Positions 1 through 27,026 of a DNA stretch of 33,493 nucleotides are shown here, piece after piece (positions within the stretch are counted from its first letter, which is position 1; the number at the start of each line of letters is the position of its first letter). Where the stretch lies: contig CALGBT010000574.1 in the NCBI GenBank assembly GCA_937884235.1, positions 1-33,493 of the forward strand, in the 5' to 3' direction. A program made the position numbers and the translations under genes. The notes beneath the pieces were generated by a model, which had not been told where the DNA came from, made no database searches, and worked only from the letters and a program-made list of their open reading frames with translations. The DNA comes from an uncultured Pseudomonadota bacterium (GTDB lineage Bacteria > Myxococcota_A > UBA9042 > CAIXZC01).

Positions 1-1370
1 CGACGAGAAGGCTCATATTGCAGGCCCGCTTTCAGACCCCCGAGGAAGGGGGGGGACCAGAGTCCGATACGTCCCCTGAACAGCACGTCTTGTCGTGCAT
101 CTGGAGCATGGAAAGCCTCACTTCCGGCGGATTCAGGATACCAATCCAGCGCCAGCGTGCCACTCGCTCGCAGACTCCAGGCATGCAGGAAATGCCAGCG
201 CAGGGCCAACAAGGCCGTGCCACCCCGGAGGTCGTAGGCCGTATTTTCAGCCTGATGAGCCCGACCTGACAGACCGGCAAGCAGGAATACCCGAGACCCC
301 AGGCGGTCCCCCCATCCAAGGCCCAGGTCACCCTCGTAACGGCTCCGCCCCATAATTCGAAACGTACGGTGTCCTCCGCCCGCAAGGAGATATACGCCAC
401 TACTACTTTGCAGCGATAGTTCCCCACGATGGCCATCGAAAAGCAAACCCCGGTCGCCGTAATCATCACGGGCCGCCAGCCATAGCGCGTCATAGTGGTA
501 GCTCAGGACCAGCTTGCTCGATGGCCAGCTGAACTCCAGTCCCGGACGTACACCCCATCCCACGTAACTCAGGTCCTTAGCCTCGTCGGCTGCAAGAAAT
601 TGCGAGCGTAGGTCCGCCTCTGCGAGCAAAAGGATCCTTCCCCAGTAAGGACCCGCGAAACGTCCCCGGACGTCCACCCCGCCCTTCCATGAAGCGAAGT
701 CCTCCCCCGACGCCTGGGGATCCAACGGTGAACCGAGCAGCGGATTGCTACTCCACCCTGCAGTCGTCTCGCCTCGCAATTCCAAGGAAGGAGTACGCAT
801 CGGCCAGAGAAGAGAAAGCAGATGGGAGCGGAGCCCAGCATCCTCGTCGTACATCGCATCCCGAGAATCGGCCTCCGAGACCCGCTGCCGAGCGGGTTCA
901 AGGCGGTCCGCCTGCAGCTCCGCCTCAGCGCGCAGCAAGTCCCATCGCGTATGCTCTTCCATTGTGATGGGACAGGTCCCCTCAGCCAATAACGCCAACG
1001 CTCCTCGATAGTCGGCGTTCTCAAGTAGGAGCCAGGCGAGACGGGCGCGGACCGTGCAATCCTCTGGCTGCCTCACAAGGGCATCCGACAGCACTTTCAT
1101 GGCCCAGGAGAGATTGCCGGTGCCGCCGTATGCCCGGGAGAGGAGCATCGTGAAGCGAGAATCCTTACCAAAACAGGCCCGCAGCGGTCGCAACAACTCT
1201 AGGCACTCTTTCGCTTTGGCTTCTTGAAGCAACGAAACGGCCTCCTGCAGAAGAGGCGCCAGGAGCTCAGGTGGGCAGGTAACAGCCACCTCCTGACCCC
1301 GGCTAAGGCCCGCCGTTGCCGCCAGCAGAACCACCGCCACAATCCACCCCGTCACCGCACTTCGATTCAT
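1..1370 (-). CDS. Partial secreted protein (C-terminus beyond left edge): signal peptide, TPR-like helical region, then beta-barrel-like region
   Basis: Manual reverse-strand translation from ATG at 1370 stays open to base 1 (about 456 codons): MNRSAVTGWIVAVVLLAATAGLSRGQEVAVTCPPELLAPLLQEAVSLLQEAKAKECLELLRPLRACFGKD... then alternating barrel-like strands (...LLLAEADLRSQFLAADEAKDLSYVGWGVRPGLEFSWPSSKLVLSYHYDALWLAARDDYGD...). Absent from the ORF track because it has no stop in the window. 4-nt ATGA overlap with the upstream gene. Confidence 0.82.
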   Translation of the reverse strand, partial: MNRSAVTGWIVAVVLLAATAGLSRGQEVAVTCPPELLAPLLQEAVSLLQEAKAKECLELLRPLRACFGKDSRFTMLLSRAYGGTGNLSWAMKVLSDALVRQPEDCTVRARLAWLLLENADYRGALALLAEGTCPITMEEHTRWDLLRAEAELQADRLEPARQRVSEADSRDAMYDEDAGLRSHLLSLLWPMRTPSLELRGETTAGWSSNPLLGSPLDPQASGEDFASWKGGVDVRGRFAGPYWGRILLLAEADLRSQFLAADEAKDLSYVGWGVRPGLEFSWPSSKLVLSYHYDALWLAARDDYGDRGLLFDGHRGELSLQSSSGVYLLAGGGHRTFRIMGRSRYEGDLGLGWGDRLGSRVFLLAGLSGRAHQAENTAYDLRGGTALLALRWHFLHAWSLRASGTLALDWYPESAGSEAFHAPDARQDVLFRGRIGLWSPPFLGGLKAGLQYEPSR

Positions 1371-3952
1371 GGGGTCTCTCCGACAACGGCTGCGTCCTTG
1401 CAGCACCTGAACCCCTTGGCTGAGATGTCCTGAAACAGTCCTCCACAGTTGTGCAGATACTCCGAGTTACCGCAATTGTAAGCCCCGCCTTTGTACCAGG
1501 ACTCGCCGTTGCCGACGTCGACCAATTCCCAGACGTTACCGTTGACGTCGTAGGCTCCCCAGGCGTTGACGCACTCCGGGAAAGCACCGGTCGCAGTGAC
1601 GTGGAACCAGGCCCCGCAGCCTTCTCCCCAGACCCCTTCCTGACTCATGTTGTAACAGTGTGGGTAGGGACAGACCTCAAGAGCAATGCAGAGCGGGTCC
1701 GCACAGTCGCAAAACGCATCGATACCGTTGCAGGCTGTTGCCGAATAGGTGTCGCCATAAACATACGCCAGTTCATCAAGCCCACCACAGGAGAGGGCCA
1801 TCTCCTCCTGCGTGCAGACCCGTTTGTCAGCTGCCACGCACGCAGCCGACGCAGTTGCCAGTTCAACCGGAAACCAGGGCAGAACACCACTTTGACTAGT
1901 GGCCTTGGAACTGTCCATGCCCTGATAGACAGCGGTGGCGTCAGCGCGAGACGCTTCGTAAATATCCATGCAGAACTGGTCGCCAATCAACACCATATCC
2001 ATTGGACAAGTGCAGAGGTCGACGCTTCCTGACAGGCACACGCCCCCGACGCACTGGTCTGCTCCGGTACAAGGATCTCCGTCTTCGCAAAGGGCACCGT
2101 CTGGAAGAATGGTCTCCTTACACTCACCGTTCAGTGGGTCGCAGCTAGATTGCTTGCAGGCTTCGGCGGGGGGCGGGCAGAAGACCACTGTAGTCGGGTC
2201 CACCGCACAGGAATAGGGGAACGACAACTTGCTGCAGAGCAAAGTGCCATTGCAATGATTTCCGTCTTCAAGAGCAGTACAATCTGCATCCGTGATGCAC
2301 TGGCAAAGACCTGACTCGCCAATGCAAGCGCCCTCCCAGCACGAATCGTCGGTGGTGCACGGTTCCTGGTCATCGCAAGGTTTGCCGTTGAGTGGCACGA
2401 CCTTGCACTGGCCATCAGCCTCGTCGCAGGATGCCGACAGACACTGGTTCTCCGGGGCCGGGCAATCAATTGCGCTGCCGGGAGAGACGACGCACACGGA
2501 AGGGGTCGTCTCCCACGAGCAGACAAGGAATCCGTTGCATAGGTTCGCATCGACCGGGCAGTCAACATCCTCCTTGCATTCGCAGACCGTCCCCTGCCCT
2601 ATGCACTCTCCAGATTCGCACTGGTCGGGCCAGGTACAGGGGTTGTTGTCGTCGCACTCCACACTGTTGGGGCTGTTGATGCAGCCCTCCATGGCCACGC
2701 ACGCGTCATCCGTGCAAGGATTGCCGTCGGCGCAGTTGGCGGCACCAGAACCTGGCACACACTCGCCGTCCTGGCAGTCGTCCCCCACTGTACAAGGGTC
2801 ACCGTCAGTGCAGGCAGCGGGACCCGGCGTGTGAGAGCAACCCGCCCCCGGCAGGCACGCGTCCTGCGTACAAGGGTTGAGATCATCACAATCCAGCGTC
2901 TCAGGGCCGGCGGCGCAGCTGCCATCGTCACAAACATCGCCCAGTGAGCAGGGGTCACCTTCGTCGCAGGGAGTGCCGTCAGCGGCTTCCACCGCAACGC
3001 ACAAACCGCTGCCCAGGCATTTGCCAACCTGGCATACGGGCAGCGGAGCCAGTAGGTCACTGCACTCCTCGTCCGACTGGCACGGCGGTAACCCGGCTTC
3101 AGTCCCTCCGTCGCCGTTCACGTCAGGGTCCAGGCATCCAGAGGCATCGGCATCGGCATCGGGGGAGTAAGTATCGGACGGGAGGTGGACATCCCATTCC
3201 CGGTCCGCTTCCGGAGGAATCCAGCAACAGCGGAAACCAAGCGCAGACGGCACCCAAGTGCGCGGTACGTAGTCACACCGATGGAGCGTCATGGAGTCGA
3301 TGCAATTGTAGGCTCCACCCCTCACTAAATTCCCACCCCCTTGGGCCACATGCTCCCACAAGTTGCCGTTCAGGTCGTACGCACCCCAGCCGTTCACGCA
3401 CCCAGCTAGACTGCCAGTGGGTAGCAGCTTCACACCATCGGTGCCAAACGTGTCGATGCCATTACAGGTCGCAGGCTCATAGTCGCTGCCATACCCATAC
3501 CTACGACCCTCTGGTCCTCGGCAAGCCAATTCCCACTCGAAGGAAGTGCACAGCCTCTTCCCCGCCGCCTCACACGCCTTCGCGGCTGTCGCGTTGTCGC
3601 TCCCTAGTTCCCACGGAATCACGCCGGGACGGCTCAGCGCCCGGGAGTCGTCCGTGCCAGCGTCAACGCTGGTGGCATCCACCCTCGATGCTTCATGCCG
3701 GTCGACACAGAAGAGGTTCTGCACCGGCACCATGTCATCGGGACAACTAATGGGCACGTGCGCCACGGGCATGCACAGGTTGTCCAAGCACTTGAACCCG
3801 GCCCCGCAACTTTCGTCTTGGAGACACTGGTAGACGCACTGCCCGAGAGCGCTGCACACCTTAGGTTGGGGACAGTCCCGGTCCATAGTGCAGCGCTCCT
3901 CCACACAGCCCAGGGCGATCAGGCAGATCAGCAAAGAACTCGCCAGCTTCAT
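1367..3952 (-). CDS. Cys-rich lipoprotein with two formylglycine-generating-enzyme (FGE/SUMF1)-like domains flanking Cys-rich repeats
   Basis: Lipobox LIALGC near the N-terminus; two FGE-like blocks (CPDDMVPVQNLFCVDRHEASR...LNGNLWEHV...VRGGAYNC...GFRCC and CPMDMVLIGDQFCMDIYEASR...VNGNVWELV...YKGGAYNC...GFRCC); central CDDxxPCTxxxxCxxGxC-type repeats. Confidence 0.88.
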   Translation of the reverse strand: MKLASSLLICLIALGCVEERCTMDRDCPQPKVCSALGQCVYQCLQDESCGAGFKCLDNLCMPVAHVPISCPDDMVPVQNLFCVDRHEASRVDATSVDAGTDDSRALSRPGVIPWELGSDNATAAKACEAAGKRLCTSFEWELACRGPEGRRYGYGSDYEPATCNGIDTFGTDGVKLLPTGSLAGCVNGWGAYDLNGNLWEHVAQGGGNLVRGGAYNCIDSMTLHRCDYVPRTWVPSALGFRCCWIPPEADREWDVHLPSDTYSPDADADASGCLDPDVNGDGGTEAGLPPCQSDEECSDLLAPLPVCQVGKCLGSGLCVAVEAADGTPCDEGDPCSLGDVCDDGSCAAGPETLDCDDLNPCTQDACLPGAGCSHTPGPAACTDGDPCTVGDDCQDGECVPGSGAANCADGNPCTDDACVAMEGCINSPNSVECDDNNPCTWPDQCESGECIGQGTVCECKEDVDCPVDANLCNGFLVCSWETTPSVCVVSPGSAIDCPAPENQCLSASCDEADGQCKVVPLNGKPCDDQEPCTTDDSCWEGACIGESGLCQCITDADCTALEDGNHCNGTLLCSKLSFPYSCAVDPTTVVFCPPPAEACKQSSCDPLNGECKETILPDGALCEDGDPCTGADQCVGGVCLSGSVDLCTCPMDMVLIGDQFCMDIYEASRADATAVYQGMDSSKATSQSGVLPWFPVELATASAACVAADKRVCTQEEMALSCGGLDELAYVYGDTYSATACNGIDAFCDCADPLCIALEVCPYPHCYNMSQEGVWGEGCGAWFHVTATGAFPECVNAWGAYDVNGNVWELVDVGNGESWYKGGAYNCGNSEYLHNCGGLFQDISAKGFRCCKDAAVVGETP

Positions 3953-4692: not shown

Positions 4693-5877
4693 TCAATCAG
4701 CGCTTTCCAGCGCCTGCCGGAGGTCCTCAAGAAGGTCGCAAGCATCTTCGATACCAACCGAATATCGAACCAGCCCGTCCGTAATCCCTGCTGCAATCCT
4801 CTCGTCTCTTGAGAGTCCCGCGTGGGTCATGGACGCAGGATGCTCAATCAGCGTTTCGACTCCACCCAGTGATACTGCAAGCGTGGCCAGCTTGACGCGG
4901 TCCATCAGGTGCCTTCCTGCCTCCACCCCACCTTTCAACTCGAAGCTGATCATCGAGCCAAAACCGCGCATCTGTCGCCGCGCCAGTTCATGCTGCGGAT
5001 GTGATGGCAGACCAATGTAACGCACCCATGCCACTTCTGAGCGAGCTTCCAGCCACCGCGCGATTTCCATGGCGATGGTCTGCGAACGCTCGATGCGCAG
5101 CCCCAACGTCTTGATACCGCGATGAACCAGAAAGGCCTGATGCGGGTCCATGCAGCAGCCGGAAATAGACATCATGTTCCGGAGCTTCCGGCCCACTTGA
5201 GCGTTGGCGGCAACTAATACACCGCCCACTACATCCGCGTGACCGTTGATGAATTTGGTCACGGAATGCAGAACAACGTCTGCCCCAAGAACCAACGGAT
5301 TCTGTAGATAGGGCGAGGCAAAGGTGCTGTCCACCACCAACAGGGCCCCCTGCTCGTGGGCAATCCCCGCAGCCGCCTCAATGTCCGTCACCTGCATCAT
5401 CGGATTGGAAGGTGTCTCCACGTAGACCAGTCGGGTCCGTTGACCCATCGCACTCGCGATCTGTTCTGGGTCGGACGTATCCACAAAAGTCGAGGTGACA
5501 CCAAAGCGAGAGAGATGAGACTCGATAAGCGTCCTTGACGGGCCGTACACCGATGCGGTGCTCACTACGTGGTCTCCTTGCTTCAGGAGAGCCAGGCAAG
5601 CGACGGTGACCGCTGCCATTCCAGAACTCGTTGCTACTGCCGTCTGGCCCGCTTCGAGATCGCACATACATCCCTCGAATGCGGCCACCGTAGGATTTCC
5701 CATGCGGGTGTAGATGAACCCGGGGTCTTCGCCGGCAAAGCGGTCTGCCCCCTCCTGAGCATTCCGAAATCCAAACGTCGAGGTTTGGTAGATTGGCGTG
5801 ACAGCGCTTCCGAACTCTTCGTCGAAGCTTCCAGAGTGAACGAGCCTGCTTGAGATACCTTGTTTGCGAACATGCAT
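4693..5877 (-). CDS. PLP-dependent trans-sulfuration enzyme (cystathionine gamma-synthase / methionine gamma-lyase-like family)
   Basis: GSAVTPIYQTSTF, YTRMGNPT, SSGMAAV, HSVTKFINGHADVVGG (PLP lysine), RYSVGIEDACDLLEDL. The ORF extends to 5928; MHVRKQG at 5877 is the more likely start. The position of the MGL Cys116 appears to be Pro (VYGPSR), so substrate is not assigned. Confidence 0.9.
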   Translation of the reverse strand: MHVRKQGISSRLVHSGSFDEEFGSAVTPIYQTSTFGFRNAQEGADRFAGEDPGFIYTRMGNPTVAAFEGCMCDLEAGQTAVATSSGMAAVTVACLALLKQGDHVVSTASVYGPSRTLIESHLSRFGVTSTFVDTSDPEQIASAMGQRTRLVYVETPSNPMMQVTDIEAAAGIAHEQGALLVVDSTFASPYLQNPLVLGADVVLHSVTKFINGHADVVGGVLVAANAQVGRKLRNMMSISGCCMDPHQAFLVHRGIKTLGLRIERSQTIAMEIARWLEARSEVAWVRYIGLPSHPQHELARRQMRGFGSMISFELKGGVEAGRHLMDRVKLATLAVSLGGVETLIEHPASMTHAGLSRDERIAAGITDGLVRYSVGIEDACDLLEDLRQALESAD

Positions 5878-5947
5878 ATGCGCAGCCTTCCTGTGTGTAC
5901 AACTCTTACCGGGAGACACCATGCCCACGCCGGTTGACCAGGTTGGT

Positions 5948-5963
5948 TGCAGCTTCTATGCCA
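5948..5963 (-). promoter_or_regulatory. Candidate sigma54 (-24/-12) promoter upstream of the trans-sulfuration gene
   Basis: Minus strand reads TGGCATAGAAGCTGCA against consensus TGGCACG-N4-TTGCA: GG and GC are at the required spacing. It lies between the sigma54-activator stop (5991) and the next start (5877). Confidence 0.6.
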
Positions 5964-5990
5964 GTCGCAGTCAGGGAGGCTGAAGGTAAG

Positions 5991-7334
5991 TCAGGTCTGC
6001 ATGCCCAGGCGTTTCATCTTGCGCCAGAGAGTATTGCGGGAAATGCCAAGGTCAGAGGCGGTGCGCACGCGACTCCCACCATTTCGCCGCAGGGCTTCCT
6101 GGATGGCCCAGGCTTCCGCCCTCTCCAACGGAGCCTGCTGGTCGACACACCCTGCGTCCAACGGTACAGGACGGGCCAGGTCCATGCAGGATTCGGGCAA
6201 GTGTTCCAACTGGAGAACATCGCCTTCGCAGAGCACGAATGCATGCTCCACCGCGTTCTCCAATTCCCGGACATTGCCCGGATACGGAGCACGCATCAAC
6301 GCGGCCCGGGCCGCATCCGAAAACCCGGCCACGTGCCGGCCGTGCAATGCGTTAAAGCGCCGCACGAAATGGTCCTGCAGCAGAGGGATGTCGTCTCGGC
6401 GCTCGGCGAGTGAAGGCAATCGAATGGGAACCACATTGAGTCGATAGAACAGGTCCTGACGGAATCGACTTGCCGCCACCTCCCCAGCCAGCTCTTTGTT
6501 CGTTGCAACGATGAGACGGACGTCAGCCTTGACCGTCTTCGTGGCACCCAACGGCTCGTACTCCCGCTCCTGGAGCACCCGCAGTAGCTTCACCTGCATG
6601 GCCGTGGATACATCCCCTATTTCGTCCAGAAACAGAGTCCCCCCATGTGCCCGAGCGAATCGTCCCGGCTTGTCCCTAATGGCACCAGTAAACGCCCCCC
6701 GGACAAAACCAAACAACTCCGACTCAAGTAGCGTGTCTGGCAACGCCGCGCAGTTTACTGCGACAAACGGCTTGCCGCGCCGAGGACTCAGGTTGTGCAG
6801 AGCTCTGGCAACCAACTCCTTTCCCGTCCCGCTGGCCCCCTCGATAAGTACCGTGGATGGGCTCTGGGCGATCAACGGCAAACGCTTCAGGATGCGCTTC
6901 ATCAACACGTTCTTGCTCACAATGTCCTGGAAGACATACTGGCCGTCCAGCCGCTTGCGCAATTCGACCAGTTGAGAGATATTTCGGAACATCTCGACGC
7001 CGCCAAGGACGGTGCCGTCCTCACTACGCAAAGCTGCAGTGGAAATGGAGATGGGCACTTCCTCGCCGTCCCGGCCGAGCACCGTAACTTCCCGCTCAGT
7101 TGTATTCTCGCCAGTCCGAATACTGCGTTTCAACGGACAGTCCTCCTGGCAGATATCGGCGCGAAAGATCTCGTAGCAACGACGACCGAGAGCCTCCGCC
7201 TGAGTGTATCCAGTGATGCGCTCCGCCGCCGGGTTAAAAGAAGTGATCTGGTCTTCAGAATTGACGGTGAAGATACCCAGGGGAGATGATGAAAAAACAA
7301 GAGCCAAATACTTCTGCTGGAGAAGACCTTTCAT
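5991..7334 (-). CDS. PAS-domain sigma54-dependent transcriptional activator (AAA+ and Fis-type HTH)
   Basis: PAS region (SSPLGIFTVNSEDQITSFNPAAERITGY), Walker A GASGTGKE, GAFTGA loop (GFVRGAFTGAI), Walker B GTLFLDEIGD, C-terminal HTH (RTASDLGISRNTLWRKMKRLG). ORF extends to 7448 but the start at MKGLLQQKYLALVF (7334) is more natural. Confidence 0.92.
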   Translation of the reverse strand: MKGLLQQKYLALVFSSSPLGIFTVNSEDQITSFNPAAERITGYTQAEALGRRCYEIFRADICQEDCPLKRSIRTGENTTEREVTVLGRDGEEVPISISTAALRSEDGTVLGGVEMFRNISQLVELRKRLDGQYVFQDIVSKNVLMKRILKRLPLIAQSPSTVLIEGASGTGKELVARALHNLSPRRGKPFVAVNCAALPDTLLESELFGFVRGAFTGAIRDKPGRFARAHGGTLFLDEIGDVSTAMQVKLLRVLQEREYEPLGATKTVKADVRLIVATNKELAGEVAASRFRQDLFYRLNVVPIRLPSLAERRDDIPLLQDHFVRRFNALHGRHVAGFSDAARAALMRAPYPGNVRELENAVEHAFVLCEGDVLQLEHLPESCMDLARPVPLDAGCVDQQAPLERAEAWAIQEALRRNGGSRVRTASDLGISRNTLWRKMKRLGMQT

Positions 7335-7476
7335 GTTGCTTTCAGTATCATGCCAGTCCCAGAATGGCAACAGTCTCGTCTCGCATGTTACAGAACTGAG
7401 ACGCCGGCATGGTCGAGGGCTGGCGCAGTACCTGTTGGCGTGGCCCATCTGTTGTCTCCCCGTTTCCTCTGGGTCG

Positions 7477-7551
7477 GATGCGTTTGGGCGCTACCACCGG
7501 CTGCCTGAGAGCGAGGTTTTCCATCGCCAGCTCTGCTCGGTCTGCGAACAA
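7477..7551 (-). pseudogene. Short remnant resembling the N-terminus of an integrase-core (DDE) transposase
   Basis: Minus-strand frame reads MFADRAELAMENLALRQPVVAPKRIRPRG, resembling the 'AELxxENLALRQQLAVLKRxxxRPR' N-terminal helix of integrase-core transposases; the match ends after about 25 residues. Confidence 0.5.
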
Positions 7552-7698
7552 GTTTTGGTGTACGACAACCTATTCTGAGGAGGGACAGGTCGCACTTTCG
7601 TTGCAGACAGAGACGGCAAAGCACGGAAAAGGACTCCCATGGACGGAAGAGATGCTCGGGTTGGAAGCGTAGCGACGCCTTGCTGCGGTTGCCGTTGA

Positions 7699-9414
7699 CT
7701 ACCGGTGAGTGGCCAGCACCCCCACCACCTGGTCCTGGATGCGGCGCATGCGGTAGGCTGATGTTTTGGTTTCAGCCATCAGAATGGCGAAGACGACGTA
7801 GCCGCCACCTCGTCGCTCGATGTAGCCGGCGACACTGGAGTGGTAGTCGAGGGTCCCGGTTTTGGCACGCACTGGTCGTTTGACGTTCTTCATGCGGTCC
7901 ATGAGAGTTCCGCTCTTGCCGCCCAGCGGCAGAGCCAACATGTACAACTCACCCCACTCCTTCTGGTTGGCCACTTCGATGAGCAGCCGCACCACCTGAC
8001 CGGCAGATACCCGATTGGCATCGAAGAGACCGGAGCCGTTTTCCAGTTGCAGGCAGCGGTGGTTGAGATGGAAACGGGCGAGGCTCTGGCGGATCACGCG
8101 CAGGCCGCACTTAAACGTCAAGGGGGCACAGCGACCCTCGCCCATGAGCTTGGCAAACTGCTCAGCCACGAAGTTCTTGCTCCACCTCTGCATCCGCCGA
8201 AGATCGGTCTGCAGAGGATCAGAAGCCAGCGTTGCGATGGGCTTCGCCCCCGCCGGTGCGACCTTGGCGATGAGAGTCTTCTGGCGCACCTCGATGCCGC
8301 GGCTACGCAACATATCTCGGGCGAAGCAGGCGGTGAACTGGTCGGGTTGGGGGATGGCCTTGCGTACCAAGACGCCGTTGCTGCTCTTCATGGGAATCTG
8401 GCCGGTGACCTGGACAACAACGTTGCCGCCGGATTCCCGCACCGAGACGGCCAGCTGCTTCTTCTCTTCCACGGTCTCAACGGTGAGAGCGCGGGAATCG
8501 ATCATCACACATGAACTGAACGGTTCCACGGTGACTCGCGGCACCGCATCCGGGTAGTCGCCGGGGAAGATGCGGACGTTGAGATTGCCATCGCACATAC
8601 CCAGGGCGCCGATTTTGGGGCGCCAGTGAGCATCGGATTGCTTCTCTTCGTAGTGTGGCGGCAGAATCTGGTCATCGAAAAAGGTCACATCGTAAAACAG
8701 TTGTTCGACGCAGGTTATGCCCTTGCTCTTGACCGCGTCCACGAGCTTCTTCACGTCCCCTTCGCAGAGTCCGGGGTCCCCGCCCCCCACCAGATAGAGG
8801 TCTGGACACTCCCCCTCCCCCGCAACTACTTCAGTATGCCAGCGGTGGTCGGGGCCAAATCGGGCCAACGCGGCGGCCGCGGTAAAGAGCTTGCTGACGG
8901 AGGCCGGATTGACCTTCAAGTCGGCCTCACGCTGGTAGATCACAGTCCCTTCCGGGTAGGCAACAGCCAGCACCGAGAGCTTGCCGCCAGCCAGGTCTTT
9001 GTTGGCGAGAATCTTGTCTACCCTGCCCTGCAGCACCGGGGGGGCCTCGCCGGGGAAGAACTCCTGGCAGCCGAAGGTCCGCTCCAGGGGTGCGACTGGC
9101 CCCATGGGAACGGGCGGCTGCTCAGCCTGAGCAGGGGTAAGGGGTTCCTCGGGGACAGGTTGATCAGCCTGAGCGGGGACGGGGGAAGCAACCTTTTGAG
9201 AAGACCTCTCGGGAGCAATCTCCGGTGGCACATCCTCAGGTTCGACAACTTCCTCATCATCAATGGGCAAGGGTGGCAAAGGTACCGGCGTCCCTTGGGC
9301 GAAGACCGCCGCGCTGCAGACCAGGCAGAGCCCGGCCAGCCAAGCGGCCAACGCGGTACGCAATAGTCCTGCCATCGGTGTTTTGCATCGGTTCAGGGGC
9401 ATCTCCTCGGCCAA
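7699..9414 (-). CDS. dacB: D-alanyl-D-alanine carboxypeptidase/endopeptidase (PBP4, peptidase S13)
   Basis: SxxK (SVSKLF), SxN-type block (ENGSGLFDANRVSA), KTG (RAKTGTLDYHSSVAGY). Signal-like N-terminus and a Pro/Glu-rich linker. ORF-track start is TTG; an ATG lies at 9402. Confidence 0.9.
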   Translation of the reverse strand: MAEEMPLNRCKTPMAGLLRTALAAWLAGLCLVCSAAVFAQGTPVPLPPLPIDDEEVVEPEDVPPEIAPERSSQKVASPVPAQADQPVPEEPLTPAQAEQPPVPMGPVAPLERTFGCQEFFPGEAPPVLQGRVDKILANKDLAGGKLSVLAVAYPEGTVIYQREADLKVNPASVSKLFTAAAALARFGPDHRWHTEVVAGEGECPDLYLVGGGDPGLCEGDVKKLVDAVKSKGITCVEQLFYDVTFFDDQILPPHYEEKQSDAHWRPKIGALGMCDGNLNVRIFPGDYPDAVPRVTVEPFSSCVMIDSRALTVETVEEKKQLAVSVRESGGNVVVQVTGQIPMKSSNGVLVRKAIPQPDQFTACFARDMLRSRGIEVRQKTLIAKVAPAGAKPIATLASDPLQTDLRRMQRWSKNFVAEQFAKLMGEGRCAPLTFKCGLRVIRQSLARFHLNHRCLQLENGSGLFDANRVSAGQVVRLLIEVANQKEWGELYMLALPLGGKSGTLMDRMKNVKRPVRAKTGTLDYHSSVAGYIERRGGGYVVFAILMAETKTSAYRMRRIQDQVVGVLATHR

Positions 9415-11300: not shown

Positions 11301-13463
11301 CTATCGGGGCTGAAACTCAATAAGCTCGAGCTGATATAGCACAAGCAAAGTGTGATAGAGGCTCGCCTTCAGCTCGTCGGTACTACACTCTCTCAGGACT
11401 TTCCCGAAGCTTCCGGCCCGCTGAACCTGGGCGAAGAGCCGCTGCTCCTTGGAATTCAGGGGCAATGACTGGATGGAAACATACTCGTTCCGCTTCTCTT
11501 TGACCGTGGACCCTTCGTGCTGCTTGAAGAGTTTCTCCAAGTCTGCAGCGGTGGAGAACTTTCGCACCCCTTCGAGCACGTAGCGGAAGACATTGGCATC
11601 CGAGGGAGCCATGTCAATGGGACAGGGTACCCCTTCGTAGAACTCGTACCGCCCTTGCGTCCATGAGAAGACCTGGAGGAACTTCTCACGGAACTGCTGA
11701 TCGAGGAGCCAGTAGAGCTCATGTGGTTTGACAAATCCCATGGAAACAAGAGCATCACCGAGACGGCCGCCAAATTCGCCGGCCCGGGAGAGAGCCTCCT
11801 CCATCTGCTCCTCGGTCACCACCTGCCGGTGGAGGAGGAAGGAGCCGAGTAGTTCCTGCTTCAGGTTGGACGCAATGTGGCGCGGTTTGCCATTGCGGAA
11901 ATAGAACTCCTTCTGGGCGGAACTCATGGTGAAGCGGAGCTTCCCAGAGAGAGAGCGGCTGGACACCTGATAGAATACGCGGACCATTCCGGTACGGGAG
12001 ATGGTACCGGAATATATGGGGGTAACGCCCTTACTCTTGAGGGCCTCATTGGGCGAGAATTTGCGAACGCCGGTAATCTCCCGGACTCGCTGCCAGTCAC
12101 CGCCATCCACGGAGACGAACTCCTCCTCGGAGACGGCTCCGGTCTGCAGCAGATTGACCAGATTGTCAAAGTCAACTGGTCCGAAAACGTAACCGGAGGT
12201 ATTGCGCAGCTTGAACTCATGCCCCTTTAGAGACTCGGACACAGGGGAGTGCTCTTCACCAAACTTGGGAGAGGCGTATTCGCCAAAATCATCTGAACCC
12301 GCCGAGCCACTTGTGAGCGGCGTGACGGTCTCGGCTTGAGCCGTCTCCTCCTGAGGGGGATGAGGTTTGGGGGCTACTGCGGCGCGCCCCTGCCCAACCA
12401 TCTCTTCCATGCGACGAGCTTCTTCCACAGCAGACTTTGGCACCCCTGGGGAGGTTGATGGACGACGTGCAATATCATTGGTGAGTTCAGTGTCAACCAA
12501 CTCTTCGGTGGTCTCTTTGATCAGGGCGGAATTCTGCGCCTCTTCGCCAAAGACACTCTTCATGTAGTCTTCGACCTGCGCGTTATTGACCCGGACCTTC
12601 AGTTCGTAGAGGTACTCCACCAGATCCTCGTGAAACTCCATGGCGGTGCCATATCGTTGTTCTCGATCTGCGGCCAGGGCTTTTCGAAGAATGGTCCTAA
12701 GCTCTTCGCCAATGAAGGGATACTTTTCAAATTTCCGCTCGATACTGGCATCGCGAATATTGATCAGCGTCTCAAGGTCGGAACGGCCGAGGAAGAGCCT
12801 TTTGAGGGTCAGTGATTCAAAGAGCACAATACCCAGGGAGAAGATATCCGAGCGGTGGTCGATCTCCTCGCCCTTGACCTGTTCTGGGGACATGTACCCC
12901 AGTTTCCCCCGCAACACGTGCTTGGAGCCCTTGGTATCCTGAGTCCTGGCCTTGGCCACGCCAAAGTCCATGATCTTGACCGAGCCCCCCCAGGAGACGA
13001 TGATATTTGAAGGGGAGACGTCGCGGTGGATGATGTTGAGAGTATTGCCGTAGATGTCCCGTGCCCGGTGCGCATAGTCCAAGCCCTTGCAGACTTCGGC
13101 GGCAAAGAAGCAGGACATGGTCTGATTGGGCTCGGCCTTGTCCTCAGCCAGCCGCGCCAGGATCTTGAGGAGGTCCTTCCCGTCCACCAACTCCATGGCG
13201 ATGTAGTACTGGTTGTCAATGTGGTCAAGTTCAAAGATCTGGACAACATTGGGATGCTGGAGCACTGAGGTCAGTTTGGCCTCGTCCACGAGCATCTTGA
13301 TGAAAGAGACATTACGGGCATATCCGGGCAGAATCTTCTTAACGACAACTATCTTCTCAAACCCTTCGATGCCGGTAAGGCGGGCCTTGTAGACTTCGGC
13401 CATACCTCCGGCGCCGATCTTCTGAAGTAGTTCGTACTTGCCGAGTACTTGAAGGGGCTTCAT
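11301..13463 (-). CDS. Ser/Thr protein kinase with GYF_2-like and DUF4388 (PATAN)-like C-terminal domains
   Basis: YELLQKIGAGGMAEVYKAR, VVVKK, HRDVSPSNIIV, DFGVAK, MSPEQ; GYF_2-like GYVFGPVDFDNLVNLLQTGAVSEEEFVSVDGGDWQRV; DUF4388-like tail (SGKLRFTMSSAQKEFYFRNGKPRHIASN...). Confidence 0.93.
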   Translation of the reverse strand: MKPLQVLGKYELLQKIGAGGMAEVYKARLTGIEGFEKIVVVKKILPGYARNVSFIKMLVDEAKLTSVLQHPNVVQIFELDHIDNQYYIAMELVDGKDLLKILARLAEDKAEPNQTMSCFFAAEVCKGLDYAHRARDIYGNTLNIIHRDVSPSNIIVSWGGSVKIMDFGVAKARTQDTKGSKHVLRGKLGYMSPEQVKGEEIDHRSDIFSLGIVLFESLTLKRLFLGRSDLETLINIRDASIERKFEKYPFIGEELRTILRKALAADREQRYGTAMEFHEDLVEYLYELKVRVNNAQVEDYMKSVFGEEAQNSALIKETTEELVDTELTNDIARRPSTSPGVPKSAVEEARRMEEMVGQGRAAVAPKPHPPQEETAQAETVTPLTSGSAGSDDFGEYASPKFGEEHSPVSESLKGHEFKLRNTSGYVFGPVDFDNLVNLLQTGAVSEEEFVSVDGGDWQRVREITGVRKFSPNEALKSKGVTPIYSGTISRTGMVRVFYQVSSRSLSGKLRFTMSSAQKEFYFRNGKPRHIASNLKQELLGSFLLHRQVVTEEQMEEALSRAGEFGGRLGDALVSMGFVKPHELYWLLDQQFREKFLQVFSWTQGRYEFYEGVPCPIDMAPSDANVFRYVLEGVRKFSTAADLEKLFKQHEGSTVKEKRNEYVSIQSLPLNSKEQRLFAQVQRAGSFGKVLRECSTDELKASLYHTLLVLYQLELIEFQPR

Positions 13464-15519: not shown

Positions 15520-16878
15520 CTAGAGAACGTACCTGGAAACGTCTTCGTCTTCGATGATATCTTTGAGCCTGGACTCAACTTCGGCGCGGTTGAAGACAAT
15601 GCGGCTGCCGGCAAGATCAGGCGCTTCGTATGAGAGCTCTTCCAGGAGCTTCTCCAGGATCGTGTGGAGCCGCCTGGCACCAATGTTCTCCATTCTCTCG
15701 TTGGCCATTACAGCCAGCTCGGCGAGGGCATCGATGGCATCATCGGCAAACTCCAATACCACTTGCTCAGTAAATAGCAGGGCGACGTACTGCTTGATGA
15801 GGGAGTTCTCCGGCTCCACCAGAATACGACGGAAATCTTCTGACTCCAGGGCCTTGAGTTCGACGCGAATGGGGAATCTCCCCTGCATCTCCGGAATAAG
15901 ATCGGAGGGCTTGGAGACGTGGAAAGCGCCGGCGGCCACGAAGAGGATGTGGTCGGTACGCACCGGTCCATACTTGGTAGCCACAGTCGTGCCTTCGATA
16001 ATGGGCAGCAGATCTCGCTGCACGCCTTCCCGGGAGATGTCGGGACCATGTCCGCCTTCACGGCCAGCGATCTTGTCCAGTTCGTCGATGAAGACGATAC
16101 CCGTCTGCTCAACCCGTTCACGGGCCTCATCCACAACCTTGTCCTGATCCACCAGGTTGCCCGCCTCTTCCTCCTCGATGAGCCGCAGGGCCTCCTTAAC
16201 TGTCACGTTCTTGTCCTTCTTCTTGCCCGGGAAGAGATTGCCGAACATGTTCTGCATGTTGAGCCCCATTTCCTCCATTCCGGCATTGGAGAAAACTGAC
16301 ATCATGGGCATTGAATTCTTCTGATCTACGGAGATCTCCAGTTTGCGATCATCGAGGAGCCCTTTACGGAGTTGTTCACGCAGCTTCTCCCGGCGCCGAT
16401 TGGCCGTCTCCACCGCGCTGCCATCTTCCACTTCCTCGAAGCTGGGTCGCACGTAGAGTTTGTCCAGGACACGGTTCTCTGCGTTGCGGCGGGCCACGGT
16501 ACGCACGCGCTCTTCTTCCTCCTTCTGCACCATTCCCACGCCAGTCTCCATGAGATCTCGAATCATGGAATCGACGTCCCGGCCGACATAGCCAACCTCA
16601 GTGAACTTGCTGGCTTCCAGCTTGATGAAGGGAAGATTGGCCAGCTTGGCCAGCCGGCGTGCGATCTCGGTTTTGCCGACTCCGGTGGGCCCGATCATGA
16701 TGATATTCTTGGGCATGATCTCTTCCTGTAGATCGCCCGGGACCATCTTGCGACGCCACCGATTGCGCAGCGCGATGGCAACTGCCTTCTTGGCATCTCC
16801 CTGACCGACAATAAAGCGATCAAGGTAGCCGACTATCTCTTTGGGCGTGAGGCTCGCCTCCATGAATGTGGTATCCAT
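15520..16878 (-). CDS. hslU: HslU ATPase subunit of HslVU protease
   Basis: [61 protein letters not shown]-terminal [19 protein letters not shown]...; diagnostic of HslU. Confidence 0.97.
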
Positions 16879-16881
16879 CGT

Positions 16882-17430
16882 CTACTCCGTTTGCGCAAGG
16901 GTCTCAACGGTGAACTCACCGTTGGTATAGATACAAAGCTGAGCGGCTACTTCCATGGCTGCCCGGGCCAGAGCCTCGGTATCCATCTCGGTGTGTCGGG
17001 CCAGCGCCCGGGCCGCCGCCACTGCGTAGGGACCGCCGGAACCAATGGCCGCGATGCCTTCTTCGGGCTCCACGATGTCGCCGGTTCCGCTGATGAGCAG
17101 CAGATTCTCCTTGTCCGCCACCAGGAGCATCGCCTGGAGCTGTCGCAGAGCCTTGTCGGTGCGCCAATCCTTGGCCAGTTCCACCGCCGCCCGCATGAGG
17201 TTCCCACTGTAGTCCTTCAGCTTCTTCTCGAACCGCTCGAAGAGGGCAAAGGCATCTGCTGTCGAGCCGGCAAAACCTGTCAGTACCTGCCCATCATAGA
17301 TGCGGCGCACCTTGCGGGCGGACCCCTTCAGGACGGTGTCGCCCAGGGTCACCTGGCCATCCCCCACGAGGACCACCTGCCCTTTGCGACGGACACCTAG
17401 AACGGTTGTGCTTCTCACTCTACTCTTCAC
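16882..17430 (-). CDS. hslV: HslV peptidase subunit
   Basis: [37 protein letters not shown]...[18 protein letters not shown]-terminal Thr after a short propeptide. Confidence 0.97.
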
Positions 17431-18326
17431 GATCGGTCCTCCTCTCGGGGATGGGCCTTGCGATAGGCCGCCATGATGGTCTTCATGTCCAGATGCGTAT
17501 ACTTCTGCGTGGTTGACAAGTTGGCGTGGCCCAACAACTCCTGAATGGTGCGCACGTCAGCTCCCTCTTCGAGCATGTGGGTGGCAAATGAGTGGCGGAG
17601 CATGTGGGGGTGGAGAGGCTTCCCTACTCGCCCGGCACTGCGATCCAGGAGCCGGCGCACCGACCGGTCCGACAGCCGCCGTCCCCGCCGACCATAGAAG
17701 AGCGCAAGGGGATCGTGCCCCTGCTGCCACCGTTGACGCTCCGCCAGGTAGGCTTGCAACGCGGCAACCGCCTCATCCCCCAGGAAAGCAAGGCGCTCCT
17801 TGCCCCCTTTACCCCGCCTGATGCGAACCTCCCGACTGCGTAAGTCCACGTCACGTTCGTCCAGGCCGGCCAACTCCGAGACTCGCATGCCGGTGCCGTA
17901 GAGCAGCTCTAGCACAGCCCGGTCTCGCAGGGTATCCGGGTCGTCCAAATCCCTGCATCCACCCACCAGATTCAGCGCCTCCCCCTGGGTCAACACTGCC
18001 GGCAATCGCTGGGGAAGCCTGACGCCGGGCAAGAGATCAGCAGGGTTCTCCTGAATCAGACCCTCCCGCTGCAAGAAGCGGTAGAACGTGGTGATGCTGG
18101 CCCGTCGCCGAGAGACCGTTGCGGCCGCATATCGCACCACCTGCAGCCCCAGGAATTCGCGCAACTGCTTGCGGCGGGCACGGGCCAGAGAGAGACGTTT
18201 GTCCGCCAGAAAATCGGCGAGCATGCCAAGGTCAGCCCGGTAGTTGCGGAGGGTATGCGGCGAGAATCCGCGCTCGACGCGCAGATAGGTTTCAAATCGC
18301 GCCATCAACTCGGTGCGTTCATCCAT
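17427..18326 (-). CDS. xerC: Tyrosine recombinase XerC-like
   Basis: [12 protein letters not shown] (Arg I), [14 protein letters not shown] (HxxR), [14 protein letters not shown] (H...Y). 4-nt overlap with hslV. Confidence 0.92.
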
Positions 18327-22305: not shown

Positions 22306-22433
22306 GGTCATCACCTCCCCTCTTGCGGCACCGGCAATGCAGCCGAAAATCTTGACTTCACCCTCTAACTGATGTTTCATCGAAGCCGGGTGTAACGCAA
22401 GGTCGACTAAGTATCCCGTGCCAGGAGGACCGA

Positions 22434-24368
22434 ATGTTCGTAGTCTCTGTAAGGGAGCGTGGTAAGGAAGAACACAAATTCACCTTCCGAAAACCTGGAG
22501 TAGTTATTGGACGGCTACGCTCCAATGACATCATCTTGCCCAAACGCAACATATCCAAACGTCATGCTCGACTGGAGTTGACCGCAGACGGCAAAATCTT
22601 GCTGGTCGACAATGGCAGCACCAACGGCAGCTATGTGAACGGCAAGAAGGTCAGTGAGACCATTGAGGTGGGGCCCGAAGACAAGGTCTTCATGGGTGAC
22701 TACATTCTTCAGGCACAGATCCTTGAGGATACCTCAGCTATCGATGGCCTGGGCAAGGAAGACATCGGCCAGATAGTGGGCGGTGACAGCCAGGGACAGG
22801 ACCGACCGACAGTGGCGGACATCGACTCCAGCATCCTCGATGAGGAGCTGCGGCGAATGGAGGCCGAGCAGAGCGAACTTGGGCCCGCGACCGTAGTCGT
22901 CGATCCCCTCGACGTTCCCACCGAGCCGCCTCCCGGCCTGCTTGAGGAGACCGGGCTCGACATGGATCTGGTTGCGGAAGACATGGCAGAGACCATGCGC
23001 TTCAAGGAAGCCAGTGAATCCACCGGCGGCGAAGTTCAGTTTGAGGTTGAGTTAGAGGAAGCAGTTCCGGAAGCCGAGCCGGTACCCGAGCCTGCCGTCG
23101 AAGAGCAGCCTGAGGCCGCCTTGGACGACCTCGAAGAACTCATTGATATTGCACTGGAAGATGACTTCGAAGCCACCGTTGAGCCGGACGAACAGCTGGT
23201 GGAGGAAGTGGACGACAAGGTTGAGGAACTCGTTGCGGTTCCGACTCCGACTCCGGCAACCACAGCCGCGCCAGTGGCCGCCACGGCCTTTGCGCCTTCA
23301 GTGAGCCGCCTTGAAACCAAGTTGGCCAGCGCCCTGGAAAGCCACTATGACGACGTTGCGGCAGCCTTCGACCAATGGCTCGAAGAAGGGGGCAAGCCCG
23401 AGGGGGCCCGGGGGCAGATAGGATCATTGCTCATCGATGCACTCGGCGACGCCGCCGGCGATCAACTGGATGAACTCGTCGACCAGGTGGTGGCTGAGCT
23501 AAACTACATCGGTGTGGTTGCCTCACTCCTCGAAGAACCCCGGGTCGGCGAGGTCTTCGTGGCTCCGTCCGGTCGCATCCAGGCCTTCGACTGGGCTGGA
23601 AATCGCCTCGATATCAACGCCTCCCTCTCCTGTCCGGCAGCCTGCGGCCGGGTGGCCGAGCGCATCCTCGATGCCGCAGGCAACACAGGCGATAGCTTCG
23701 CTGAAGCGCGCTTGCAGGATGGCACACTGGCGCGGGTCTTCATGGTTCCCTACGCCGCCGAGATCCCAGCATTGCGTTTTGTCCGTCCCTTCCAAACCTC
23801 CATGTCATTGGCCAAACTTCAGGATACCGGGGTAGTTACTGCGGCCCAGGCAGCAGAACTAAAGAAGGCCGTCACGGCCAGGCGTAACATCCTCGTCACT
23901 GGCCCCAAGACCTCAACCATGACCCTGTTGATCCACTCCTTGGTCGCGGCCATCGACCCGTCGGAGCGCCTGTTGGTTTCGGGCGATCGCTTCGCCGGTG
24001 GACCGGGACTGGAGAACGCCACCATCTTTGCGGCGCGCGCAGTCCATTCACATGATTTTTCGGAGGCCTGCTCGCAGATGGGATTTGACCGGGTCGTGCT
24101 TGAAAATGGCGCCGGAGATACGGTTGTTGCGACTATGGAACTGGGCGCATTGCTGCAGATTCCATACATCGCCTCGGCACGCCTCAACGACCCGACCAAT
24201 CCCACGGCCCTGCTGGGAATGAGCAATGAAGAAACCCGGCTCGCCCTGCTTGATTCTCTGGACCGGGCCGGAGTCATCCTCGTCGCCACTGGCGATGCTG
24301 GAGTTGATTCCATCTCCCTGTTCACCCTTCAGGCTGGTGAGCCGAAACTGGTAGACATCTCTGCCTGA
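22434..24368 (+). CDS. FHA-domain protein with acidic linker and C-terminal CpaF/T2SS-ATPase-like domain (degenerate nucleotide-binding motifs)
   Basis: FHA: VVIGRLRSNDIILPKRNISKRHARLEL...DNGSTNGSYVNGKKV. CpaF-like: VGEVFVAPSGRIQAFD...LRFVRPFQTSMSLAKLQDTGVVTAAQAAELKKAVTARRNILVTGPKTSTMTLLIHSL...QMGFDRVVLEN. RBS AGGAGGA upstream. Confidence 0.85.
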   Translation: MFVVSVRERGKEEHKFTFRKPGVVIGRLRSNDIILPKRNISKRHARLELTADGKILLVDNGSTNGSYVNGKKVSETIEVGPEDKVFMGDYILQAQILEDTSAIDGLGKEDIGQIVGGDSQGQDRPTVADIDSSILDEELRRMEAEQSELGPATVVVDPLDVPTEPPPGLLEETGLDMDLVAEDMAETMRFKEASESTGGEVQFEVELEEAVPEAEPVPEPAVEEQPEAALDDLEELIDIALEDDFEATVEPDEQLVEEVDDKVEELVAVPTPTPATTAAPVAATAFAPSVSRLETKLASALESHYDDVAAAFDQWLEEGGKPEGARGQIGSLLIDALGDAAGDQLDELVDQVVAELNYIGVVASLLEEPRVGEVFVAPSGRIQAFDWAGNRLDINASLSCPAACGRVAERILDAAGNTGDSFAEARLQDGTLARVFMVPYAAEIPALRFVRPFQTSMSLAKLQDTGVVTAAQAAELKKAVTARRNILVTGPKTSTMTLLIHSLVAAIDPSERLLVSGDRFAGGPGLENATIFAARAVHSHDFSEACSQMGFDRVVLENGAGDTVVATMELGALLQIPYIASARLNDPTNPTALLGMSNEETRLALLDSLDRAGVILVATGDAGVDSISLFTLQAGEPKLVDISA

Positions 24369-24385
24369 AACAATGAACCGGGTAG

Positions 24386-25117
24386 ATGAAAGGGACACCG
24401 CACCGATTCGAACTCACCATCACCACCGCTGACGGTCACACCCACGTCTTCCCTCTACCCGAAGGTGAGCACGTCGTCGGCCGCTCCCTGGCCTGCGAAA
24501 TCTACGTCTCAGAGGCTTCACTCTCCCGCCAGCACCTCCGTATCAGTGTCGCAGGCAGCAGCCTCTCGGTTACCGACCTGGAGAGCCTCAACGGCACCCA
24601 ACTCAGGGACCAACCCCTCACCGGCAGCGCTCCCGTCAAGCCCGGGGAGCCACTGGTACTCGGCGAACTTGAGGCCACCATCAGAGACGCCAGCGCTGAA
24701 GTTGGAGCCGATCAGGTCTGGCTCGAAGTGCTCAACACTTCTTTGCGGGGCAAAGTCTATGAGGTGACCAGTTCAAGGATCATTATCGGCCGCTCCGGGT
24801 CAGTCGATTTCCCCATCGACCATCCCACCATCTCCCGCGCTCACGCCGTGCTATCTTACTCTCCGGACGACCGAGCCTGGCTCCTTGAGGACCGGAAGAG
24901 CGCCAATGGCACTTTCGTCAACAATGTCATGGTCTCGCAGTCGCTGGTCACCGGCGACGATACCCTCAGAGTAGGGGACGTGGAGCTACGCTTCACTCGC
25001 CAACCCCCGGCAGGCAACCGTCAACGCACCGGCCTGCTCATTGTCCTGATGCTGCTACTGGCAGGCTCCATCGGGGTCCTCCTCGCCGACCTCTTTGGCC
25101 TGCTGGTCTCGCCCTGA
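24386..25117 (+). CDS. Tandem double-FHA protein with C-terminal TM anchor
   Basis: FHA1 VVGRSLACEIYVSEASLSRQHLRISV...DLESLNGTQL; FHA2 IIIGRSGSVDFPIDHPTISRAHAVLSY...DRKSANGTFVNNVMV; TM TGLLIVLMLLLAGSIGVLLADLFGLLV. Confidence 0.92.
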   Translation: MKGTPHRFELTITTADGHTHVFPLPEGEHVVGRSLACEIYVSEASLSRQHLRISVAGSSLSVTDLESLNGTQLRDQPLTGSAPVKPGEPLVLGELEATIRDASAEVGADQVWLEVLNTSLRGKVYEVTSSRIIIGRSGSVDFPIDHPTISRAHAVLSYSPDDRAWLLEDRKSANGTFVNNVMVSQSLVTGDDTLRVGDVELRFTRQPPAGNRQRTGLLIVLMLLLAGSIGVLLADLFGLLVSP

Positions 25118-25199
25118 CCGGATGTCCGGCCTCCGGACAATGGGTTTGCGCCCAGGTGCAGGGCCATGTAAGATGCTGTCGTTCATGGAGGGTGTGAGG

Positions 25200-27026
25200 A
25201 TGAAGCGGTCCGCGCTATTGGCATTGGTTCTTCTAACTCTGGGCCTGATTGGCTGCTCTAACGAGAGCGCCAGTACGCTGCCCGAAGTCACCGACGACTG
25301 CCCGCTAAAGGGGACACGCACCTGCGGCCTCGATGACAACGGCAACTTCGCGGTTCTTCAGTGCGGCGCCTTCCTGATATGGGAGCTTGAAATGGCCTGC
25401 CCGGGCAGCTGCATCTTTGATAGCGTTGTCGGGGTAGTCTGCGAGGGAGGGGAACTGCCAGACGTCATTGGGGATGACCTCCCGGATGGGGACGGCTGGG
25501 ATGTTCGGATCACCGACACCCCCAGCGACCTTCCCCAGGAGACAGAAACTCCCACCGATGTGACTCCTGATCTGCTTGACCAGGATTACATCTTCCCGGA
25601 CCTGATGCCCGACCTGACACCACCATGGATCGAAACCACCAGTCCGGCTGACAACGAGATGGGAGTTGCCGTGCCATTCGTGGTCACCGTCCAGTTTACC
25701 GAACCGATGCACGCCATCACCCTAGAGGCAAAGACCGTGCGCATGCATGATGCCGGTGGCAAAGAAGTAGGCCTGGAGTTCGAGTGGCTCGACGAGGAGA
25801 CATCGCTGCTGCAGTTGACCCCCAGCGGGGCCATCTTTCATTCGTCGCCCTACTCCATCACCATTGACCCCATCGTCAAAGACAAGGCCGGCAATTCAAT
25901 GGGCAATACTTTCTCCTTCACGTTTTACACCAAGGCCGTACCCAGCCTCAATGGATACGCCGAATTAGCCGGCAAGTATGCGCCTCTGATTTACCAGGAA
26001 ACCAACACCACTTCGCCGCAATTCGACTATCCCACTCGCTTCGACCTGGATAGCGATTGGGTTGCAGAAGACAACGTCGAGTTCATCAAAGGCGCAGCTA
26101 CCACAATTGAACCGACAGTCCACTACTCCGTAACCGAGACCAAATCGCACTTCTTCATCACCTATGCCTTCTTCTACCCGTACCGCTACACAGAGGATGA
26201 ATCCAGCCGCTTTGGCAACGACGTTTCTGGTGCCCTGGTGGTAGTACGCAAGGTCAACGAAGCACCCGTCGCGGTAGAGACCTACTTCAAGCGCGAGACT
26301 GACGAACGATCGTTCTCGTTTATCACCGAAGAATCGCAACTACTGCCGCCGGGGAAGACTTTTTCTGACCTCAAGTTCGATGGCATGCTGCCAATTGCCA
26401 CCCTCTTCCCGGGAAACCGCTATGTGGCCTACCTCTCGGGGCGCAAACATGAGTCCTGTCTCTGGCTCGACGAGAACAATGGCTTCCTTGATGGCTGCAT
26501 CCTCAACACCGGCATCAAGAACGGGATGCAGAAGATCGAGATGAACTACAAGAACGGCGTCGTCGACATCCTCAAGAAGGAGGGGAGCAAGTTCCCCCAG
26601 GCCAAGGCAGACGTGGGCTTCGCACTGGTGCATCTCCTGGACAGTTGGTGGGCACGGCGGGCCGATATCGGTAGTGGGAAGGTCTGGGCTGAGGACTACA
26701 AGTACCAGCCCGACACTCACTTTGCCAACCGACCAACACTTTCAACCAAGATTCCCACCTCTTTCATCGACCCCATTGGCAACGACTACGGGCGGCCGCC
26801 GTGGGCCTGGAAACACAAGCCAGGCAACGGCTCGAGCTACTTCGACATGCCCCGTGGGGTCTGGTTCCTCGACCCTGCCGTGCACTTCAAGCTGCGCCAC
26901 GACCAGAGCAACGGGTGGTCCGACTATGACACCCAGGCGGGTACCGGATGGTCCCTGGAGTACTGCTTCAACCCTTACTTCAACCTCGATTTCCGCGGCA
27001 TCTGGCCGGAGTGCACTGCCAAGTAG
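25200..27026 (+). CDS. Lipoprotein with SbsA-type Ig-like domain and C-terminal domain distantly resembling Vps62-like proteins
   Basis: Lipobox LGLIGC; Asp/Pro linker; Big_5-like PPWIETTSPADNEMGVAVPFVVTVQFTEPM...YSITIDPIVKDKAGNSMGNTFSFTFYT; C-terminal KYAPLIYQE...FFITYAFFYPYRY...NDVSGALVVV...YLSGRKHESC. Start corrected from 25095 to ATG at 25200. Confidence 0.8.
   Translation: MKRSALLALVLLTLGLIGCSNESASTLPEVTDDCPLKGTRTCGLDDNGNFAVLQCGAFLIWELEMACPGSCIFDSVVGVVCEGGELPDVIGDDLPDGDGWDVRITDTPSDLPQETETPTDVTPDLLDQDYIFPDLMPDLTPPWIETTSPADNEMGVAVPFVVTVQFTEPMHAITLEAKTVRMHDAGGKEVGLEFEWLDEETSLLQLTPSGAIFHSSPYSITIDPIVKDKAGNSMGNTFSFTFYTKAVPSLNGYAELAGKYAPLIYQETNTTSPQFDYPTRFDLDSDWVAEDNVEFIKGAATTIEPTVHYSVTETKSHFFITYAFFYPYRYTEDESSRFGNDVSGALVVVRKVNEAPVAVETYFKRETDERSFSFITEESQLLPPGKTFSDLKFDGMLPIATLFPGNRYVAYLSGRKHESCLWLDENNGFLDGCILNTGIKNGMQKIEMNYKNGVVDILKKEGSKFPQAKADVGFALVHLLDSWWARRADIGSGKVWAEDYKYQPDTHFANRPTLSTKIPTSFIDPIGNDYGRPPWAWKHKPGNGSSYFDMPRGVWFLDPAVHFKLRHDQSNGWSDYDTQAGTGWSLEYCFNPYFNLDFRGIWPECTAK

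Follow-up and report, generated by a model that had tools for sequence, protein, structure and literature searches.

A catalytically degenerate FHA-CpaF protein and a membrane-anchored FHA partner form a class-wide two-gene module, with a proposed phospho-dependent scaffold role

Fusions of an N-terminal FHA domain to a CpaF-type motor are already known. The KilF protein of the Myxococcus xanthus Kil system, a Tad-like predation apparatus, contains an N-terminal FHA domain and a CpaF-fold domain, has several FHA proteins encoded nearby, comes from a deltaproteobacterial lineage, and is described as a hexameric ATPase within an apparatus that includes a secretin, a platform, and pilins (PMC8460266). 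The class III CpaF/TadA proteins have the domain order FHA-IDR-3HB-NTD-CAD, and in Caulobacter crescentus CpaF, whose residue numbering is used throughout, the K287A substitution by itself abolishes ATPase activity in vitro, while the extended pore loop (T325-T337) is predicted to contact the T2SSF domains of the platform (PMC12019362). Further comparators are FHA phospho-switch adaptors such as GarA/OdhI and the type VI secretion protein TagH, which have a canonical FHA domain and possibly kinase-controlled binding, but here the resemblance is confined to the FHA domain and the effector domain is not common.

The locus described here lies in a stretch of 33,493 nucleotides (the window) from a genome of 5.57 Mb in 958 contigs that is 87% complete and presumably metagenome-assembled. 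The gene of interest, referred to as FHA-pseudoCpaF, and its downstream partner have the following features.

22423 to 22428, forward strand: Shine-Dalgarno sequence AGGAGG, seen in the sequence
22434 to 24368, forward strand: FHA-pseudoCpaF gene, 644 amino acids (P0001), an open reading frame with AGGAGG shortly 5' of its ATG
22434 to 22727, forward strand: N-terminal FHA domain (Pfam) with the canonical pThr-binding residues R27, S41, H44, S62, N64, and G65
22728 to 23285, forward strand: Pro-rich acidic linker, probably disordered, in which GPATVVVDP and MAETMRFKE are candidate pThr sites (exploratory)
23286 to 24365, forward strand: catalytically degenerate CpaF/TadA-fold domain (3HB, NTD, CAD), from profile, AlphaFold2, and Foldseek
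23901 to 23924, forward strand: degenerate P-loop GPKTSTMT (G286T, K287M; T288 kept), against CpaF GGTGSGKT at 281-288
23985 to 24005, forward strand: degenerate Asp box DRFAGGP with E312 lost, by alignment
24024 to 24074, forward strand: position at which the extended pore loop is shortened, from the length between CpaF 312 and 351
24075 to 24107, forward strand: degenerate R347/Walker B segment QMGFDRVVLEN (R347 to Q, E357 to N), against RMRPERIIVGE
24180 to 24194, forward strand: degenerate His box RLNDP (H382 to R), against HANSP
24386 to 25117, forward strand: partner gene, 243 amino acids, two FHA domains (Pfam) followed by one transmembrane helix (residues ~216-234)

The FHA domain of the window protein scores 57.6 bits against Pfam, and both the fold and the conserved pThr-site residues that are features of pThr-binding FHA proteins are present. 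The C-terminal domain scores 16.2 bits against Pfam T2SSE, under the cut-off of 24.9, and 60.3 bits (E = 1.8e-16) against the NCBIfam TadA model TIGR03819, far below the cut-off of 373.15. A sigma-70 promoter scan gave no match. The window protein shares its domain order with class III CpaF, of which structures 8rkd and 9e24 are its best matches, but unlike class III CpaF it has lost K287, E312, R347, E357, R223, and H382 together with part of the T325-T337 loop. The class family as a whole resembles KilF in its FHA-to-CpaF fusion, in having further FHA proteins encoded close by, and in its deltaproteobacterial lineage. It departs from KilF in that catalytic residues are lost, as is part of the pore loop, and in that it is encoded by a stand-alone two-gene module.

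A first-pass annotation made from the DNA letters had called this protein a pseudo-ATPase, pointing to a stretch (23901-24110) that runs from the P-loop through the Walker B region. Alignment bears out its reading of the P-loop, in which Lys is replaced by Met and the preceding Gly by Thr, and of the Walker B block, and it also agrees on the HANSP-like block, which lies just beyond that interval; the loss of E312 from the Asp box is an addition to its list. When seven catalytic positions are scored (K287, T/S288, E312, R347, E357, R217, and R223), the window protein retains two, T288 and R217, and of the NTD arginine fingers it has lost R223. Judged from these residues, FHA-pseudoCpaF has very probably lost catalysis.

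The fold itself is kept, as had been supposed at first pass. A profile built from 40 class orthologs returns the CpaF structures 8rkd and 9e24 at the top (E ~1e-65; 8rkd at 1.2e-65), and the match spans the whole of the 3HB, NTD, and CAD. The AlphaFold2 model of the window CpaF-like domain has a pLDDT of 91.4 and a pTM of 0.86, and in Foldseek its best matches are TadA/CpaF structures (8rjf, E = 3e-20; TM 0.56-0.63), followed by FlaI, GspE2, and VirB11. The GPKTSTMT segment sits exactly at the P-loop position of this model, between a strand at 202-206 and a helix starting at 209 in domain numbering, and an intact P-loop elsewhere in the protein, which would have spoken against the pseudo-ATPase reading, was found neither by profile nor by structure. 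The helix that follows begins at the equivalent of residue 284, three residues before the former Lys, and in a control model of the active FHA-CpaF L137, from a related class, it begins at the Lys itself; the modeled position in the window protein would fit with a phosphate-binding nest that has been lost.

The loss of catalytic residues is shared across the class. An ortholog is present in at least 46 of 52 class genomes, comprising 44 aligned sequences and the module in two more genomes (L130 in G017 and L092 in G046), and a 47th genome (G047) contains a fragment; a peptide-pattern scan of genome contigs had picked up two relatives only. Not one of the 44 aligned orthologs has the complete seven-residue set, which is found in 48 of 53 CpaF-type relatives from other classes of the phylum and in all four Tad CpaFs of the same class, so that the check proposed at first pass, whether orthologs share the loss, is answered with 44/44 affected in the class versus 5/53 elsewhere, a difference beyond chance. 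Just three of the class members (L027, L053, and L069) still have the canonical Walker A GK[ST], five others read GKR and one GKL, and Arg occupies the Lys287 position in 28 of the 44. In the window's own family, f1, no two members have the same P-loop (GPKTSTMT, GRNPAVNS, GPETATND, and ASDPDALE). Because the Lys replacements are family-specific, and mostly to Arg, the loss of the lysine appears to have been progressive or repeated, and since three members keep GK[ST], with L027 missing only R223 among the seven positions, some class orthologs may still bind or even hydrolyze nucleotide. FHA-CpaF fusions with intact motifs, whose existence the first-pass annotation had noted, do occur in related classes.

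The degenerate domain is under purifying selection. By the Nei-Gojobori method, on pairs with dS mostly below ~1.3, the CpaF-like domain has a dN/dS of 0.033-0.067 in genus g8 (where the P-loop reads GRRT) and 0.05-0.21 in the other pairs of the class family, alongside 0.06-0.17 for active Tad CpaFs; the linker evolves faster (0.12-0.30). The FHA residues R27, S41, H44, S62, N64, and G65 are invariant in 40 of 40 orthologs. Within the CpaF-like domain the 3HB is the most conserved part of the class family and the CAD the least (entropy 3HB < NTD < CAD), and the order is reversed in active CpaFs, where the ATPase domain is the most conserved and the three-helix bundle the least. Kinases and AAA proteins have well-studied pseudo-enzyme members, and the features that define a pseudo-enzyme, an enzyme fold, catalytic residues lost across orthologs, and maintained selection, are all found here. 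The pseudo-ATPase designation thus stands on losses throughout the class, a kept CpaF fold, and purifying selection on the domain, and the regulatory or structural repurposing suggested along with it is plausible.

A second mark of the family is an indel. The interval between CpaF residues 312 and 351 is exactly 40 residues long in 55 of 55 active proteins and only 29-36 residues in 44 of 44 class members, and what is missing is a portion of the extended pore loop T325-T337. A sister module, f19, has the same operon of FHA-CpaF and 2xFHA-TM genes in 12 genomes (L138, L149, and L177-L186), and its interval is likewise shortened in 12/12, to 34-35 residues. It shares with the class family the loss of E312 and R347, and none of its 12 members has the complete catalytic set, but unlike the window protein it retains K287 and T/S288 (GK[ST]) and R217 in 12/12 and R223 in 11/12, and for this reason it looks like an earlier step; it is probably an intermediate that, going by its residues, would bind but not hydrolyze nucleotide. 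In at least three f19 genomes a further FHA-CpaF, intact and separate from the module, is encoded (L189-L191), and at L137 (G053) a fully intact FHA-CpaF is itself followed by a 2xFHA gene. On a tree built by a quick search, with the pore-loop and catalytic columns left out, the pore-loop loss maps to one change (99% SH-aLRT), the loss of R223 requires two changes, and that of K287 five, though the very long branches of several pseudo-members, together with the quick search, leave the details of branching unsure. In the simplest history to be drawn from the tree and the indel, an FHA-CpaF that was active and had an FHA-TM partner first lost the pore loop along with R347 and E312, and the Walker A lysine was then lost repeatedly. 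Two further sets of proteins were seen alongside. Degenerate FHA-CpaFs with a shortened interval (33-35 residues) occur in other families (L142, L187, and L188), where no 2xFHA gene lies downstream. FHA-CpaF loci of families f18, f20, f22, f30, f31, and f34 (L144, L151-L153, and L155-L163) have a second, shorter CpaF paralogue with intact motifs a few kb downstream, and these paralogues form their own clade (support 100); the Kil paper describes one ATPase (PMC8460266).

The partner gene begins 18 nt downstream of FHA-pseudoCpaF in the window. Of the 44 class loci with room for it, 43 have a 2xFHA-TM gene immediately downstream, and at the 44th (L066) a longer open frame contains FHA matches where the gene would be expected; in f19 the gene is adjacent in 12/12. 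Longer versions of the partner have TPR-like C-termini, and as the partner in the window's family is 242-243 amino acids long and ends at the membrane helix, without the C-terminal TPR part, its readout may differ. Other neighbors vary by family and include thiG, a ThiE-like gene, a flippase, an O-antigen ligase, an acetyl-CoA synthetase, and GidA, most of these names being readings of the sequences and not search matches; given these differences, the 2xFHA gene is the sole constant neighbor, and an operon with Tad or pilus genes was accordingly rejected. In the window's family a Big_5 Ig-like lipoprotein is conserved beside the module (window 25095-27026, forward strand, with a likely start at ~25200 and a lipobox LIGC), although L039 and L040 encode it on the other strand. 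Elsewhere in the window, on the reverse strand, are a cluster of a XerC-like tyrosine recombinase, an HslV-like proteasome subunit, and an HslU-like AAA ATPase (15520-18326), in a gene order common to L040, and an FGE-sulfatase domain protein with Dictyostelium-type Cys-rich CTDC repeats (1367-3952).

The module does not track with a Tad pilus. Intact CpaF occurs in 5 of 52 class genomes, and RcpC and Flp pilin are found within the class only in the same five, which indicates that the module persists where there is no Tad pilus. In the window genome, at 87% completeness, no intact CpaF, RcpC, Flp, or single-domain Tad platform was found; its T2SSF platform proteins are three, all two-domain, and PilB- and PilT-type ATPases and PilC are present. 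That the protein might join an active CpaF in mixed hexamers was rejected for most of the class on the same count of CpaF genomes.

These observations bear on what the protein might do instead. It might serve a different type IV filament machine as a regulatory pseudo-subunit, binding a T4a platform or motor and modulating it in a phosphorylation-dependent way, for which the window genome would offer the PilB/PilT-type ATPases and three two-domain platforms just mentioned, CpaF-fold proteins being known to bind T2SSF-type platforms (PMC12019362). The loop predicted to touch the platform is, however, shortened in every member, the gene lies beside pilus genes at none of the loci examined, and the fold is that of CpaF and not PilB/PilT-like, and we consider this role unlikely. 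A domain that binds nucleotide, or another phosphate ligand, without hydrolysis and couples this to FHA signaling would fit with the K287 and T/S288 that all 12 f19 modules keep in proteins lacking E312 and R347, and with the persistence of GK[ST] in three class members, GKR in five, and GKL in one; but with a P-loop that varies from member to member in the window's family, and a modeled helix in the window protein that begins within the former P-loop, such a sensor is improbable.

Continued ATPase activity through a non-canonical P-loop has in its favor the Lys at the third P-loop position in the window (GPK), as some P-loop NTPases use displaced lysines. Yet this Lys is not conserved even within f1, five of the seven catalytic positions are gone, and substitution of K287 alone inactivates CpaF (PMC12019362), so activity of this kind seems highly improbable. 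Decay of a pseudogene left over from a lost Kil/Tad system would fit with lost catalysis and the lack of Tad markers in most class genomes, but it is already contradicted by a reading frame intact in dozens of genera, by a CpaF-like domain dN/dS of 0.03-0.2 in all pairs, by invariant FHA residues, and by a partner gene that is always adjacent; we rejected it on the dN/dS values and give it hardly any weight. A motor-type protein whose ATP-using parts are gone is thus maintained under strong selection, with its FHA domain intact and a gene for a membrane-anchored FHA partner beside it, which suggests that a motor became a signaling scaffold. We therefore favor, as rather likely, a pseudo-enzyme acting in a class-wide two-gene module, FHA-linker-pseudo-CpaF with FHA-FHA-TM with or without TPR, as a phospho-dependent scaffold, and on the residues and domains described a scaffold or adaptor role for FHA-pseudoCpaF itself is fairly probable.

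In this scaffold model, a Ser/Thr kinase would phosphorylate Thr sites, candidates for which lie in the linker itself, and the FHA domains of the pseudo-CpaF protein and of the membrane-anchored partner would bind them. The kept 3HB/NTD core may be a scaffold at the inner membrane, possibly hexameric, and the protein would then be a phospho-switchable assembly platform and not a pilus motor, having arisen from an active FHA-CpaF of the KilF/class III type that lost the pore loop and R347/E312 first and the Walker A lysine later. FHA domains read the residue at pT+3, which makes linker Thr sites candidates for binding by the FHA domains of the same module. The pattern T-x-x-[ILVMF] is present in 40 of 40 class linkers, where 31.7 would be expected from composition shuffles (p ~0.002), a modest enrichment from a test that ignores relatedness and uses a motif chosen after the linkers had been read. 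This signal is confined to position +3 and is seen for Thr but not for Ser, it is absent from the f19 linkers, and the recurring forms differ by family (RPTVAMPA, DRMTGPIDGL, DESTQAISL, and ETMRF). A phospho-switch at these threonines can be advanced only tentatively. The L065 linker (ORF 5684-7714) contains three near-identical DESTQAI[NS]L repeats, a candidate region for multi-site phosphorylation. The window genome has 37 Pkinase matches, and a Ser/Thr protein kinase that also contains DUF4388 and a weak GYF-like match is encoded on the reverse strand at 11301-13463, ~9 kb from the FHA genes; it is a possible upstream kinase of the module.

In the open-access papers searched we found no description of a class-wide, catalytically dead FHA-CpaF in a stand-alone FHA operon, nor of any class-wide dead CpaF/VirB11-type motor. 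There is perhaps an even chance that the full picture is right, in which a type IV filament motor turned into a membrane-tethered scaffold that is controlled by a kinase, no longer acts as a motor, is fixed throughout a bacterial class, does not depend on a Tad pilus, and has its order of loss preserved in living lineages. If true, it would show a route from a pilus or secretion motor to a signaling scaffold, and would provide a graded, testable series of active proteins, proteins without the pore loop but with the P-loop intact, and fully dead proteins. It also serves as a warning for annotation, in that an FHA-CpaF-like gene in these lineages does not imply a Tad/Kil predation apparatus.
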